Shown here: positions 6,360 to 15,518 of the stretch, piece by piece
Layout of the letters: each line of letters begins with the position of its first letter
Position numbering within the stretch: position 1 is the first letter of the stretch
Origin: a virus
DNA length: 20,061 nt
IMG/VR virus record: IMGVR_UViG_3300042564_001371
Span: 1-20,061 of that record
Strand: one strand, 5' to 3'
Position numbers and translations under genes: made by a program
Notes under the pieces: model-generated
Told to the model about the DNA's origin: nothing
Seen by the model: the letters and a program-made list of their open reading frames with translations, nothing else
The model's database searches: none

Positions 6360-7685
6360 TTACTTTACAGATTTACTTGCCTCTGCCGTACTTTTATCTT
6401 CACGTAATTCAATAAATCTAGGTAAGAACAAACTCTCACTTTCGCCAGATCGTTCTTTAATACGTGCATTATAACGTACAGTAATAATTTTTCCTATTAC
6501 TTTTTTGTCAAACTCTGCTCGTTGTTCATCCGAATAACCAGAGCCAACATTAACACGAATAACACCGTCACTTGTTTCGCATACTAGTGCGCCTAAGCGA
6601 CCTTTGTTTTTACCAGTACCTTCTTCCCAGTCAACTACCATCAGATCACATTCAAGTTCTCCCTTGAACTTAATTTGATCTTTAGATCGGCGATCTTCCC
6701 AAATACCTGTTTTGGATTTTAGAATAGTACCTTCTTGACCTTCTGCCAAGAACTTCTCAAAGATTTTTTGTGCTTCATATAAAGTATCTACTTGCTTAGT
6801 CCACACTAAATCTACATAATGTCTAAATTGGTCAAAATTAGATTTAACGTGTGAAATACAATTATTGAGTTTGCCCAATCTAACATTGTAGGGCTCTTTG
6901 TCAATACCTTGTTTGAATGAAGCATATGGAATAGCATCCCACAATGTAGCTCGTACGTTTTCAGCTTCAGTATTACTCATTGTACCTTTAATTGCTTTAG
7001 ATAAAATGCCGTTACCTGTTTGTCTATTAACTGGTTTACCTGCATAATCTGCAACTAACAATTCACCATCGAATACCATATCATCTTTATAGAATTCTGC
7101 CATCTTAATAAATGGTATTGGGAATGATGGATTAGGAATAGTTATTTCCTTACCATTGCGTGATCTAAATTCTACTACGCCGTCTTTGACGATTGCATTG
7201 AATCGCATTCCGTCGAGCTTGAGCTGACAAAGCGCGGGGAGTGCGATTTTGTCGACAAGCTTTTGGTCGTATCCAGAAGCCAACATAACTGGGTATGTCG
7301 AAATAATACCGGGCCAAATTTTATTTGCTGTGGCTTCGGAGACTCCGCAACGGAGGTCTTTTGCAATAACACGCTCAATGATTTTGGCATTTTCTTTACT
7401 CAAGTTAGATAGAACATTACGTAGATGTGAAATAGCATTGTTGCCTGTTACTGTTCGACTAGACAATAGTGATAAATCATCTAATGCCTGTTCCAAAGTT
7501 TTGCTCTCTGAAACAAAATCGTAACTTGGAATTTTTCTAATGTAGAATTGAATGAACGGGTCAAGTGCAAGATAGAAAACTTGTTTAAGTGTTTTGTTAT
7601 CTTTGTTTTTAACAAGAATTGCTTCTTTAGCTAAACGGGAATTATCATTTGCTAATTGTTCAAATATATTATAGATCATACTCAT
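6360..7685 (-). CDS. 30: ATP-dependent DNA ligase, T4 gp30-like
   Basis: This 441-aa protein follows T4 DNA ligase (487 aa) along its length: the N-terminal helical region (KEAILVKNKDNKTLKQV, residues 20-36, cf. gp30 KQAILEKNKDN), RDL.CG-like KDLRCGVSEATANKIWPG (109-126), motif I KLDGMR with the adenylated Lys156, motif Ia-like RSRNG (174-178), motif III FDGE (205-208), motif IV EGTILK (318-323), motif V IKFK (338-341) and the C-terminal SLFLPRFIELREDK, which matches the gp30 tail. It seals nicks in dsDNA during replication and Okazaki processing using ATP. It is about 45 aa shorter than gp30, mainly in the nucleotidyltransferase domain insert. The SD AAGGAG precedes the ATG. A perfect consensus promoter (7706-7734) directly drives it. 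Confidence 0.96.
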   Translation of the reverse strand: MSMIYNIFEQLANDNSRLAKEAILVKNKDNKTLKQVFYLALDPFIQFYIRKIPSYDFVSESKTLEQALDDLSLLSSRTVTGNNAISHLRNVLSNLSKENAKIIERVIAKDLRCGVSEATANKIWPGIISTYPVMLASGYDQKLVDKIALPALCQLKLDGMRFNAIVKDGVVEFRSRNGKEITIPNPSFPIPFIKMAEFYKDDMVFDGELLVADYAGKPVNRQTGNGILSKAIKGTMSNTEAENVRATLWDAIPYASFKQGIDKEPYNVRLGKLNNCISHVKSNFDQFRHYVDLVWTKQVDTLYEAQKIFEKFLAEGQEGTILKSKTGIWEDRRSKDQIKFKGELECDLMVVDWEEGTGKNKGRLGALVCETSDGVIRVNVGSGYSDEQRAEFDKKVIGKIITVRYNARIKERSGESESLFLPRFIELREDKSTAEASKSVK

Positions 7686-8210: not shown

Positions 8211-8978
8211 TTAAGGTTTCCTTTCAATATCATCTTCAATACAATTATCGCCATACTGGATTTCGATAATCTTCAATGGGACTTCAGCTTCATTGCAAAG
8301 CTGATGCCACTCTGTTTTGCCAATATGTAGACTTTCAAATTTCTCATAAGTCCCTTTTAGCTCAACATCTGTGCTTCGATTTAAACTATAAACCGTAGCT
8401 GTTCCTTCTGCAACGAACCAATGTTCTCCACGATCTTTATGTCGTTGCATGCTTAAACATTTACCAGGATCAACAGTAAGTTCTTTTAACTTTACTTCCT
8501 TGTCTTGTTCGTGTAGTACTCGGTAATATCCCCAAACTCGATCTGTTTTTGGGGCTTTCCATTCTTGAAGAATCCAAGAACTAGAGTTCATTTTGTTTTC
8601 GCCACCTACACCGAATAAAAATTCTAGGTTATCATCTATAATATCCATTTCCGGGATATTCTCTTTTGTACGGTCTCCACCATTAGCAAAAATAATTTTT
8701 TCGTTAGGATATATCTCTCTAACTTTACGTATAGCATCCTTAGCAGAGTTATCATTGTCATCGAAGTTGATAACTCTGCCTATATCTTGTAAGGAAGCAA
8801 CAATAGTTGCACGCTCTTCCCAGGGCATAAACGGCGAACCTTTTTTACGAGTCAACCATGCATCAGAATTTACACCCACAACTAACAAATCGCCTAATTT
8901 TTTAGCTGATTTAAAATATTCGATATGACCAGAATGAATTGGATCGAAACCACCTGTTACTAAAACTATTGTTCTCAT
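8211..8978 (-). CDS. HldE/RfaE-type nucleotidyltransferase fused to mannose-6-phosphate isomerase-like cupin
   Basis: A two-domain protein of 255 aa. Residues 1-~140 form an HxGH nucleotidyltransferase: GGFDPIHSGH (9-18), GVNSDAWLTRKKG (35-47), NGGDRT (99-104) and NSSSWIL (131-137), as in the C-terminal adenylyltransferase domain of HldE/RfaE and in TagD-type cytidylyltransferases. Residues ~148-255 are a cupin of the type-II mannose-6-phosphate isomerase/ManC C-terminal family: VWGYYRVL, PGKCLSMQRHKDRGEHWFVAEGTA (171-194) and KIIEIQYGDN. The classic ManC has a different, GT-A type nucleotidyltransferase at the front, so this is a distinct combination. A role in activating a phosphosugar (heptose or mannose type) after isomerisation is inferred. 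It overlaps the upstream gene by one base (TAATG). Which NTP is used cannot be told from the sequence. Confidence 0.82.
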   Translation of the reverse strand: MRTIVLVTGGFDPIHSGHIEYFKSAKKLGDLLVVGVNSDAWLTRKKGSPFMPWEERATIVASLQDIGRVINFDDNDNSAKDAIRKVREIYPNEKIIFANGGDRTKENIPEMDIIDDNLEFLFGVGGENKMNSSSWILQEWKAPKTDRVWGYYRVLHEQDKEVKLKELTVDPGKCLSMQRHKDRGEHWFVAEGTATVYSLNRSTDVELKGTYEKFESLHIGKTEWHQLCNEAEVPLKIIEIQYGDNCIEDDIERKP

Positions 8979-9390: not shown

Positions 9391-9419
9391 ATTATAACAT
9401 CTTTTGACGATGTTGTCAA
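9391..9419 (-). promoter_or_regulatory. Sigma70-type promoter, perfect consensus (upstream of 9367 gene)
   Basis: Minus strand TTGACA (9419-9414), 17-nt spacer, TATAAT (9396-9391), all consensus. The spacer contains an inverted repeat AACATC...GATGTT (the last base shared with the -10) and ends in TGT. The TGA within TTGACA is the stop of the -1 frame extension of the upstream DUF6433-like gene. The start codon of the driven gene lies ~24 nt beyond the -10. Confidence 0.88.
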
Positions 9420-10038
9420 GTCTTATCAAAAGCCCTAAATTTATGTTCAAGAAACATTCTACTATCGTGATTAGGATCGTCGGGAATCGTTCCTTGATCT
9501 GACCATTGTTCTTTTGGCACAGAAACTGGTTTTTCTTTGAACCAGGTCAGGATGCGTTCAAAGAATCCGTCTTTTTTGCCTTCGGTTCTCCCAATGGCGG
9601 AATGATTGGCTTATTAGGCAATAGACCAGGAAAAGCTTCTCTTACCAAATCTTCTTTCAATGATTTGTATTTAGTTTGTAGTTTTCTATCTTTAGCTAGA
9701 CACACTGCTTCAGCTTCTGTCCAATGAATGCCTTCAAGCAATTGAATAAACAACTGCTCTTTTCTAGCGCGAGTCAAATTAACATCATTTTGTAACCAAA
9801 TATAAAAACGTCTAAATTCTACATAAAGATTTGACTCAGAATAACCTGCAGGTATAGATGTATCCTTTTTGTAAGGAGGCTCACCTTCAGGTAAACTCAT
9901 TTTAACATTTGGATCAAAATTAATTTGCAACATCCCTTTTAGAATAGGATGGTCATATGCTCTTAATGTTTTAATCTTGGCTTCTTTGGAGCCAGCCTTT
10001 TCAACTTCATCAAAAATCTGTGGGATAGATGTTTTCAC
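9416..10038 (-). CDS. DUF6433-like phage protein with probable -1 programmed frameshift (207-aa product; 163 aa without shift)
   Basis: Zero frame: GTG at 10036-10038 to TGA at 9547-9549, 163 aa. The body (SLPEGEPPYK, residues 49-58; LFIQLLEGIHWTEAEAVCLAKD, 96-117; EAFPGLLP) resembles DUF6433-family proteins of T4-like cyanophages, a family of unknown function. At codons 154-156 (GCA AAA AAG) sits A AAA AAG; a -1 slip there continues into a 51-codon frame ending at TGA 9416-9418 and adds DGFFERILTWFKEKPVSVPK..., a Trp/Phe-containing tail with clearly protein-like composition (see the separate signal entry). The GTG has SD AGAGGA about 8 nt upstream and starts one base after the rnh stop. Alternative: the extension is conserved in relatives in-frame and this copy is a simple frameshift mutation or sequencing error. 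Confidence 0.72.
9533..9592 (-). promoter_or_regulatory. dnaX-type -1 ribosomal frameshift signal
   Basis: On the minus strand in order: SD-like GGGAG (9592-9588); 10 nt; slippery heptamer A AAA AAG in the correct phase (9577-9571); a 5-nt spacer ACGGA; then a perfect 10-bp stem TTCTTTGAAC/GTTCAAAGAA (9565-9556 with 9542-9533) with a 13-nt loop that contains the zero-frame TGA. E. coli dnaX has the same heptamer, an SD-like element 10 nt upstream and a stem about 5 nt downstream. The stem here is AT-rich and so weaker than in dnaX. Confidence 0.78.
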
Positions 10039-14819: not shown

Positions 14820-15518
14820 TTAAAATGCTTTTAGTTTTTGCCAAGTATCCATCCAATTAAGTACATTATAACACCCACCTATATTGTTGTCAATAATAAC
14901 TTTACCTAAAGGATAATCATTACCCACCTTATCCATACGGTCTCCGAAGAAATGAACTTCTTTTTCGTCTGGTAAATATTTGAGTATTTGAGATTTGTCG
15001 GCGCCTTTGGCAAATATGTCAATGCCCGTTTCGCCCCCGACAACGGCCTGTACAGTAGACCATTTGTTGTTGATTTCGTTTGCAATATGCTCTCGCTCAA
15101 GATGAATTCTATCCCATTGATAGTATTCGTCTCTTTCAATACCTATAGCATTACGACCAACTATTGAAAAGTTTAACATCCCGATTCTTTCTTCGAAATG
15201 TTTACCATATTTAAAATTATATCTAGAATAATACAGTTTGTTTTCAAGAAATAGCCATAAATCATCAGGACATTTCCAATCGCTTTTGTAGATTAATTTA
15301 CCTTGTTGATAAATTGCATTACCTGAGCAATTGAAAGAAAACCTGGCTTTGTTGACCAGGTCTTCTCCAAGCTGTTCTATAGTTTTTTCAAGATCAGATC
15401 CTGTCACAAATGCAACAGGATGTTGATCCATAAAATTATTAAACCAAACTTTAAATTCATTATCTATAACGCCACGACTCGGTGTGAGTGTGCCATCCAC
15501 ATCAAATATAAAATACAT
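14820..15518 (-). CDS. Phosphomannomutase-type HAD protein (eukaryotic PMM-like)
   Basis: A 232-aa HAD-superfamily protein. Motif I FDVDGT (residues 5-10; catalytic Asp6 and Asp8), VTGS (38-41), then PMM-family signatures: FNCSGN (62-67), ERIGMLNFSIVGRN (110-123; eukaryotic PMM has the R.GMLN.SP.GR block), VVGGETGIDIF (159-169) and motif IV FFGDRMDKVGND (190-201). Phosphomannomutase of this type interconverts mannose-6-P and mannose-1-P through a phosphoaspartate. The eukaryotic PMM-like HAD fold is unlike the bacterial ManB/AlgC phosphomutases. It belongs with the mannose-type isomerase cupin (8211-8978), the Nudix gene and the glycosyltransferase. SD AAGG before the ATG (15516-15518). The promoter at 14865-14893 lies in its 3' end. 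Substrate assigned by family resemblance only. Confidence 0.8.
   Translation of the reverse strand: MYFIFDVDGTLTPSRGVIDNEFKVWFNNFMDQHPVAFVTGSDLEKTIEQLGEDLVNKARFSFNCSGNAIYQQGKLIYKSDWKCPDDLWLFLENKLYYSRYNFKYGKHFEERIGMLNFSIVGRNAIGIERDEYYQWDRIHLEREHIANEINNKWSTVQAVVGGETGIDIFAKGADKSQILKYLPDEKEVHFFGDRMDKVGNDYPLGKVIIDNNIGGCYNVLNWMDTWQKLKAF
14865..14893 (-). promoter_or_regulatory. Sigma70-type promoter, perfect consensus (upstream of 54-aa gene)
   Basis: Minus strand TTGACA (14893-14888), 17-nt spacer, TATAAT (14870-14865), all consensus. The spacer ends in TGT, as in the other two. It lies in the last part of the phosphomannomutase reading frame and points at the 54-aa gene, the TTG-started gene and the glycosyltransferase. 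Confidence 0.8.

Follow-up and report, generated by a model that had tools for sequence, protein, structure and literature searches.

The window (the whole 20,061-nt stretch of DNA that was analysed) carries on its minus strand a gene with a GTG start and a zero-frame ORF of 163 aa (10038-9547). The sole Pfam match of its product is DUF6433 (PF20025; 100 bits against a cut-off of 38.9), in agreement with the family named in the preliminary description, and the protein also matches phrog_461. A T4-type RNase H gene (10921-10040, minus strand) lies directly upstream, with its stop 1 nt before the DUF6433 start, and the downstream neighbour encodes a 129-aa phrog_27048 protein. The same phage has a separate full ligase at 6360-7685.

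The 3' end of the DUF6433 gene was read directly for the elements of a -1 frameshift signal, all of them on the minus strand. The slippery heptamer A AAA AAG (9577-9571) stands in the phase GC[A AAA AAG] and is preceded, 10 nt upstream, by an SD-like GGGAG (9592-9588) with a duplex energy of -7.3 kcal/mol. A spacer of 5 nt (9570-9566) separates the heptamer from a stem with the 5' arm TTCTTTGAAC (9565-9556) and the 3' arm GTTCAAAGAA (9542-9533), both also supported by folding and by the relatives. The arms form 10 of 10 perfect pairs around a 13-nt loop, inside which lies the zero-frame stop TGA (9549-9547). The -1 frame (9577-9416) would encode two Lys and 51 further residues up to the TGA at 9418-9416; this tail is supported by the open -1 frame, by the relatives and by a dN/dS of 0.31. 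Adding these 53 residues to the 154 that precede the two Lys codons gives a predicted trans-frame product of 207 aa. The layout that had been claimed from the sequence, from the stop after 163 aa to the predicted 207-aa fusion, was thus verified at every position, including the overlap of the tail stop with the -35 of a consensus promoter, TTGACA-17-TATAAT (9419-9391, minus strand; 12/12 sigma-70-type match).

This promoter is the probable start of the next transcription unit. Four perfect sites of this kind occur in the window, all on the minus strand, with the first base of the -35 at 14893, 9419, 7734 and 3635; those at 9419 and 7734 each closely precede a gene and share bases with the end of the ORF before it. 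The promoter spacer (9413-9397) contains an ACATC...GATGT inverted repeat that was found once in the window. A 255-aa ORF at 8211-8978 joins in one protein a cytidylyltransferase-like N-terminal domain and a mannose-6-phosphate isomerase/cupin C-terminal domain.

By themselves, before comparison, the elements in the window are only suggestive. The 37 window ORFs chosen as likely genes, 6,222 codons in all, hold an in-phase A AAA AAR 5 times, so that little weight attaches to the heptamer by itself. Folding of the next 51 nt gave -13.0 kcal/mol (z -2.3) and 3 of 200 shuffles were equally good; taken alone, the stem signal of the window is modest. Judged by the comparison that follows, conservation among relatives lifts the signal far beyond chance.

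Relatives were collected from IMG/VR by selecting loci via DUF6433 and not via the tail. The scans comprised the best 80 of 202, the best 80 of 290, the best 80 of 175 and the best 80 of at least 586 loci, and only pattern-matching stretches confirmed by tblastn were taken into the locus set. Loci from the DUF6433-based scans were 66-99% identical among the matches listed, alignment-based scans added more distant ones, and many loci are repeat copies of one contig. Among the matches listed, the tail was in the -1 frame in all 378 loci in which both parts were recognised, 363 of 363 from the first scans and 15 of 15 from a later, wider scan. An in-frame tail, which the preliminary description had held against its own reading, was seen by HMM in 0 of these 378 tail-bearing loci among the matches listed, and the +1 frame likewise gave 0. 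The first set also happened to count 378 loci, and in 375 of them DUF6433 was detected by HMM, 363 with the -1 tail and 12 without; the latter are exactly the 12 isolate phages taken for contrast. The three loci with no DUF6433 match were the window's own (L099) and two in which the tail only was recognised (L155 and L373).

The later scan, centred on the boundary, gave 78 new loci, 15 with the -1 tail and 63 tail-less by HMM; among the matches listed, the tail-less ones were more distant, mostly marine relatives. Seven of the 63 were opened (L401, L403, L404, L406, L412, L425 and L438). In the first four an in-phase A AAA AAR is kept and the -1 frame is open, but its tail is very divergent. 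The zero-frame end of L405 is identical to those of L403 and L404, its tail score is similar (L403-L405 against the tail model, E 0.02), and it was judged to share their arrangement. Zero-frame ends were inspected for 40 of the 63 tail-less loci, and many of the others (inspected ends, 35 of 58) end a short way behind the domain, as the cyanophage proteins do. In L401 the zero frame continues for about 50 residues past the domain. Among the 486 phage records with DUF6433, the tail was not found in the 12 isolate records opened; the remaining records were checked for it by tblastn with two tails only. As far as these sequences go, the arrangement marks one broad lineage of uncultured T4-like phages. 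Of the 84 distinct relatives, 82 have RNase H upstream of DUF6433 and the loci of the remaining 2 are cut off at that point; photosystem genes, sought as a host clue in the records of six relatives, were found in 0 of 6.

We have then compared the recoding devices. Distinct sequences were defined by the 160 bases around the stop, which gave 84 among the 363 loci of the first scans; these include L066, a truncated copy of L065, and a narrower stretch gives 77. The type counts cover those 363 loci, with the later 78-locus scan outside, and are A AAA AAG in 36, A AAA AAA in 33, C CCT TTG in 8, a stop-start overlap (TAATG or TGATG) in 6 and G GGA AAC in 1. The first two types, 69 sequences, make up group A, and in 63 of the 69 the heptamer starts 31 nt before the end of the zero-frame stop. 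The proposed dnaX-type signal stood in this comparison: slippery site, stem and -1 tail recur in 69 of the 84 distinct sequences, which keep A AAA AAR; the other 15 use another device.

The C CCT TTG branch (L160 and L248-L254) has an in-phase heptamer, and its overlap lacks a start codon. The internal SD, of the AAGGGAGG/GGAGG type and very strong, is placed about 10-12 nt upstream. Assignment of L160 to the A AAA AAG type was rejected, its neighbours showing C CCT TTG and a strong SD, and it was counted as group C. In E. coli, C_CC.U_UU.G belongs to a set of heptamers selected because they gave over 0.10% frameshifting with no stimulator present, A_AA.A_AA.G ranks with the most efficient ones, and G_GG.A_AA.C is weak, yet occurs in IS elements (PMC4066793). 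The branch is a candidate SD-driven -1 site with an unusual heptamer. In the stop-start branch (L332, L333, L335, L338, L340 and L341) the tail ATG overlaps the zero-frame stop, and the overlap is probably expressed by re-initiation instead of frameshifting. With the tail encoded behind such an overlap in these six relatives, its fusion to DUF6433 is not obligatory everywhere.

In a protein tree of 75 of 94 proteins (near-copies removed), the 63 tail-bearing and 12 tail-less rows were separated at 99/98, the C CCT TTG and stop-start types formed one clade each, and the deepest tail-bearing rows were of the A type. Because the tree rests on few columns and its outgroup branches are long, it gives only a tentative order of the device changes.

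The downstream stem was followed by imposing the window helix on alignment A3, which holds 36 of 39 distinct segments (L160, L165 and L166 were left out; L165 folds as a long bulged stem and L166 folds poorly). This gave 90% of cells paired, against 29-61% when the partner was slid by 1-3 columns. The changes seen in A3 were one inner pair from G-C to A-U and two pairs from A-U to G-U. Column shuffles were as good in 0 of 500 for cells paired, 0 of 500 for cells changed on both sides and 2 of 500 for the covariation score; two of the five measures were unremarkable, namely pairs changed on both sides (116 of 500) and pair types (317 of 500). This comparison indicates that the stem persists, with some compensatory change. 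More distant relatives form a stem at the same place from other letters, for example GTCTCTTTGAA with TTCAAAcGAGAC and GGTCCCTT with AAGGGACC.

In 50-nt windows across the 69 group A sequences, the mean folding energy was lowest right after the heptamer, -11.5 kcal/mol, the mean over all positions being -6.3 kcal/mol (sd 1.6). The best stems starting 3-11 nt after the heptamer averaged 10.3 bp in 68 of the 69 sequences, against 6.8 in dinucleotide shuffles, with poor stems in two group A rows (L133, 7 bp; L166, 5 bp). Single foldings of relatives were mostly unremarkable (z < -2 in just 2 of 11), the window stem is A-U-rich, and RNAalifold on A3 found only the inner 6 pairs, with -0.81 kcal/mol in all. 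Part of the pairing follows from the protein, because the codons of F..E/F.K are partly self-complementary. Codon choice points to selection on the RNA: the Phe codon of the single-coding 3' arm is TTC in 43 of 48 rows (91 of 354 gene-wide), while another invariant Phe of the tail is TTT in 49 of 49.

The upstream element was less uniform. No other 14-nt window of the gene in our sequence is as strong as that with GGGAG, and over 52 rows the 14-nt window 7-20 nt upstream of the heptamer had a mean anti-SD duplex of -5.1 kcal/mol, stronger than anywhere else in the gene (mean over the gene -1.3, sd 1.0). The SD-like element of E. coli dnaX stands 10 nt from its heptamer, and the peak in our rows fell exactly at the dnaX spacing. 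Over all 69 group A sequences the mean was -4.2 kcal/mol, with 30 at or below -5 and 25 above -2.5. The SD-like element is strong in the close relatives of the window, but conservation of this part of the signal did not extend to 25 of the 69, in which it is weak, so that it seems partly dispensable. It becomes extreme in one branch, with -8.7 to -12.6 kcal/mol in 8 of 8 C-type sequences, equalled by no other window of the gene, which would fit a weaker slippery site.

To have a view of the shared N-terminal part, we have modelled it and compared its profile with those of other proteins. The AlphaFold2 model (23 sequences, pLDDT 72.6) is all-helical to residue 135, and residues 145-163 are disordered. 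Foldseek against the PDB gave no match with E <0.001, though ranks 1-20 were all DNA ligases. In VIA-align, ligases made up 33 of the 34 entries listed: the DNA-binding domain (DBD) of T4 ligase gp30 (PDB 6dt1, 5wfy) had Z 11.1 over 129 residues at 3.5 A, a Prochlorococcus ligase 10.9, a Rhizobium phage ligase 9.6, and human LIG1 and LIG3 5-6.5. Helical models can reach a Z of this size by chance, and the fold match alone is no proof. With hhalign, DUF6433 residues 2-145 aligned to residues 1-134 of 441-aa phage ligases (probability 94.4%, score 58.5), while the controls reached 19.5 at best over 60 column shuffles, 17.9 when reversed and 11.0 with RNase H; with the narrower alignment A2, the profile probability against ligases was just 54%. 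By these comparisons the protein is related to the ligase DBD, and a detached ligase-type DNA-binding domain is its most likely identity.

The DUF6433 protein of two lake cyanophages is annotated "DNA ligase". A full ligase was rejected for the protein studied here, which ends after the DBD-like domain and is without the KxDG nucleotidyltransferase or the OB domain. The DB domain of T4 ligase is described as a 7-helix module (PMC6698739), and RNase H and ligase as the Okazaki repair pair of T4 (PMC3012046). Based on the ligase-DBD fold and the RNase H neighbourhood, the DUF6433 protein probably binds nicked or duplex DNA in lagging-strand maturation.

We consider it highly probable that the gene is read by a dnaX-type programmed -1 ribosomal frameshift, with a ligase-DBD relative as the shared part and probably a partner-binding peptide as the tail. 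Ribosomes translating the DUF6433 gene would reach A AAA AAG, where the Lys-tRNAs in the P and A sites would re-pair one base upstream, with help from the downstream stem and from the SD-like GGGAG, which would bind the 16S rRNA tail. Part of the ribosomes would end at the zero-frame TGA and release the 163-aa protein, and the remaining ones would go on in the -1 frame and gain 51 residues, giving the 207-aa product. Slippage would take place in the linker behind the folded domain, in agreement with the disordered residues 145-163 of the AlphaFold2 model, and its efficiency would set the ratio of bare to tailed DNA-binding protein.

The nature of the tail bears on this reading. In 26 diverse tails aligned, 11 residues are invariant, the mean column identity is 64%, and most end in YRAFDK plus one residue; the recognisable features are a short amphipathic helix, an invariant Trp and the terminal (Y/F)RAFDK. 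The dN/dS was 0.31 in the -1 frame (mean pS 0.63, close to saturation; pN 0.32) and 0.77 and 1.37 in the other two frames, over 1,039-1,058 pairs of related rows from 49 of 52 rows (L066, truncated, L160 and L166 were left out). By this measure the tail is coding and under purifying selection in the -1 frame. The model of the tail alone was not confident (pLDDT 67, pTM 0.18), which fits a binding peptide, and we infer that the tail, present on some of the molecules, probably serves as a partner-recruiting peptide.

It is unlikely that the frameshift is real and the tail functionless, the signal merely tuning the amount of DUF6433 or downstream translation. Such a role would be compatible with the lack of a confident fold, with L401, L403, L404 and L406, which keep A AAA AAR yet have very different -1 tails, and with the searches for relatives outside the DUF6433 gene: two tails compared by tblastn with 50,697 phage records had no match with E below 3, Pfam and PHROGs had no match for the tail of the window, and of 2 stretches matching the tail pattern in genome contigs 0 were confirmed. 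It does not account for the 11 invariant residues and 64% identity, nor for the retention of the tail as its own ORF in the stop-start branch. A PDB profile match of the tail to PCNA (E 0.018, 17 residues) was judged to be a chance amphipathic helix. In the marine cyanophages L102, L103 and L106 the DUF6433 end is overlapped by an unrelated small -1 ORF that starts at the stop or close to it, so that the -1 overlap position recurs with a different protein; as a version of the tail this ORF was rejected, its sequence being unrelated.

A tail made as a separate gene, unfused to DUF6433 and translated close to the zero-frame stop by an independent ribosome or one that re-initiates, is very unlikely for the window. 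This is what the TAATG or TGATG overlaps of 6 of the 84 distinct relatives suggest for their branch, and TTG overlaps the zero-frame stop in 14 of the 69 group A sequences, with TTG or GTG just after it in 10 more. In these 24 of 69 the -1-frame TTG or GTG begins 27-36 nt beyond the heptamer start, and some re-initiation may occur there. However, the window has no start-type codon in the -1 frame from the last stop to 14 codons past the heptamer, and 0 of the 69 group A sequences have a -1 ATG, GTG or TTG from the last stop to 9 codons past the heptamer start. The residues KK..FFER encoded in this start-less stretch are conserved, and in 12 of the 69 a -1-frame stop is placed no more than 2 codons before the heptamer. 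A separate gene would also leave the strictly phased heptamer, the stem and the SD-like element unexplained.

Production of the fusion by transcriptional slippage on the A run, and not by the ribosome, is more doubtful still. Runs of 6-7 As would be too short for efficient transcriptional slippage, and those in group A are just 6 (36 rows) or 7 (33 rows), never longer. The C CCT TTG and G GGA AAC relatives have no such A run, and under this mechanism the phase, the SD and the stem would be needless. Transcriptional slippage of this kind is described for Thermus thermophilus dnaX, on a nine-A run (PMC3711429). Finally, A-runs are prone to indels, but a sequencing or assembly indel that split a longer gene, or a recent mutation with a decaying tail, has a negligible chance and is already refuted by comparison: the 84 distinct sequences share the same frame relation, which excludes the missing or extra base at 9571-9577 that had been raised as an objection, the tail is under purifying selection in the -1 frame, and its retention in many phages of distant relationship marks the arrangement as a real genetic signal.

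The programmed frameshift thus preferred can be placed in a wider setting. The linkage between domain and tail is kept while the device changes (A AAA AAR with a stem, C CCT TTG with a very strong SD, G GGA AAC, or stop-start), which would make coupled, ratio-controlled expression the conserved thing. The stop-start branch suggests either that the tail can act unfused or that the coupled ratio is what matters. We see about an even chance for a joint scenario in which a T4-like lineage detached the ligase DBD as a free replication protein, was selected early for a set fraction with a partner-recruiting -1 tail, and has conserved this coupled, ratio-controlled expression rather than one slippery site.

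Such a frameshift would easily escape notice, since the 163-aa ORF has the look of a whole gene and the tail is without a start codon. It would be a conserved case in a protein associated with replication, in T4-like phages that form a broad uncultured lineage. Two findings added here by comparison are new: the same overlap appears to be served by several different recoding devices, which offers a natural series, and DUF6433 gains a lead to its function and a testable identity as a free ligase-type DNA-binding domain. In the passages covered of a large review and of a prediction-tool paper, phage frameshift cases are mainly tail chaperones and capsid proteins, and the latter paper also names lysins, methyltransferases, polymerases and RusA/RuvC among frameshift genes. 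DUF6433 was not found in the literature searched, a scope that leaves most subscription literature outside, and titles and abstract openings on T4-like, cyanophage or RNase H frameshifting and on phage ligase domains held no such case.

The T4-like cyanophages, Cr30 and phiM7 have a homologous N-terminal domain in their DUF6433/phrog_461 proteins, and the tail is absent in the 12 isolate records. The DUF6433 protein shares the DBD fold with T4 ligase gp30 and is without its nucleotidyltransferase and OB domains. E. coli dnaX has the same build of signal, with A AAA AAG, an internal SD-like element, a 5-nt spacer and a 10-11-bp stem-loop, in the gene of a replication protein made in two lengths. 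Its heptamer, 5-nt spacer and stem are described in two papers (PMC8861025, PMC7282821), and its SD-like stimulator and hairpin in a third (PMC3711429). The tau/gamma protein is unrelated to the DUF6433 protein, and in dnaX the shift leads to an early stop and the shorter gamma, whereas in the DUF6433 gene it would append a conserved tail. The three elements attributed to dnaX in the preliminary description thus hold for the build of the signal, but the logic of the products is nearer to lambda gpG/gpGT. There the common N-terminal part gains a C-terminal domain by the shift, and the two products are made in a set ratio (PMC5009743). Both are phage genes in which a shift extends a shared N-terminal part to give two products. 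A G/GT tail assembly chaperone was rejected for the DUF6433 gene, which is not between a major tail protein and a tape measure and has RNase H upstream in 82 of 84 relatives. Unlike these tail assembly genes, DUF6433 would be a ligase-DBD relative beside RNase H, with a signal of the dnaX build.
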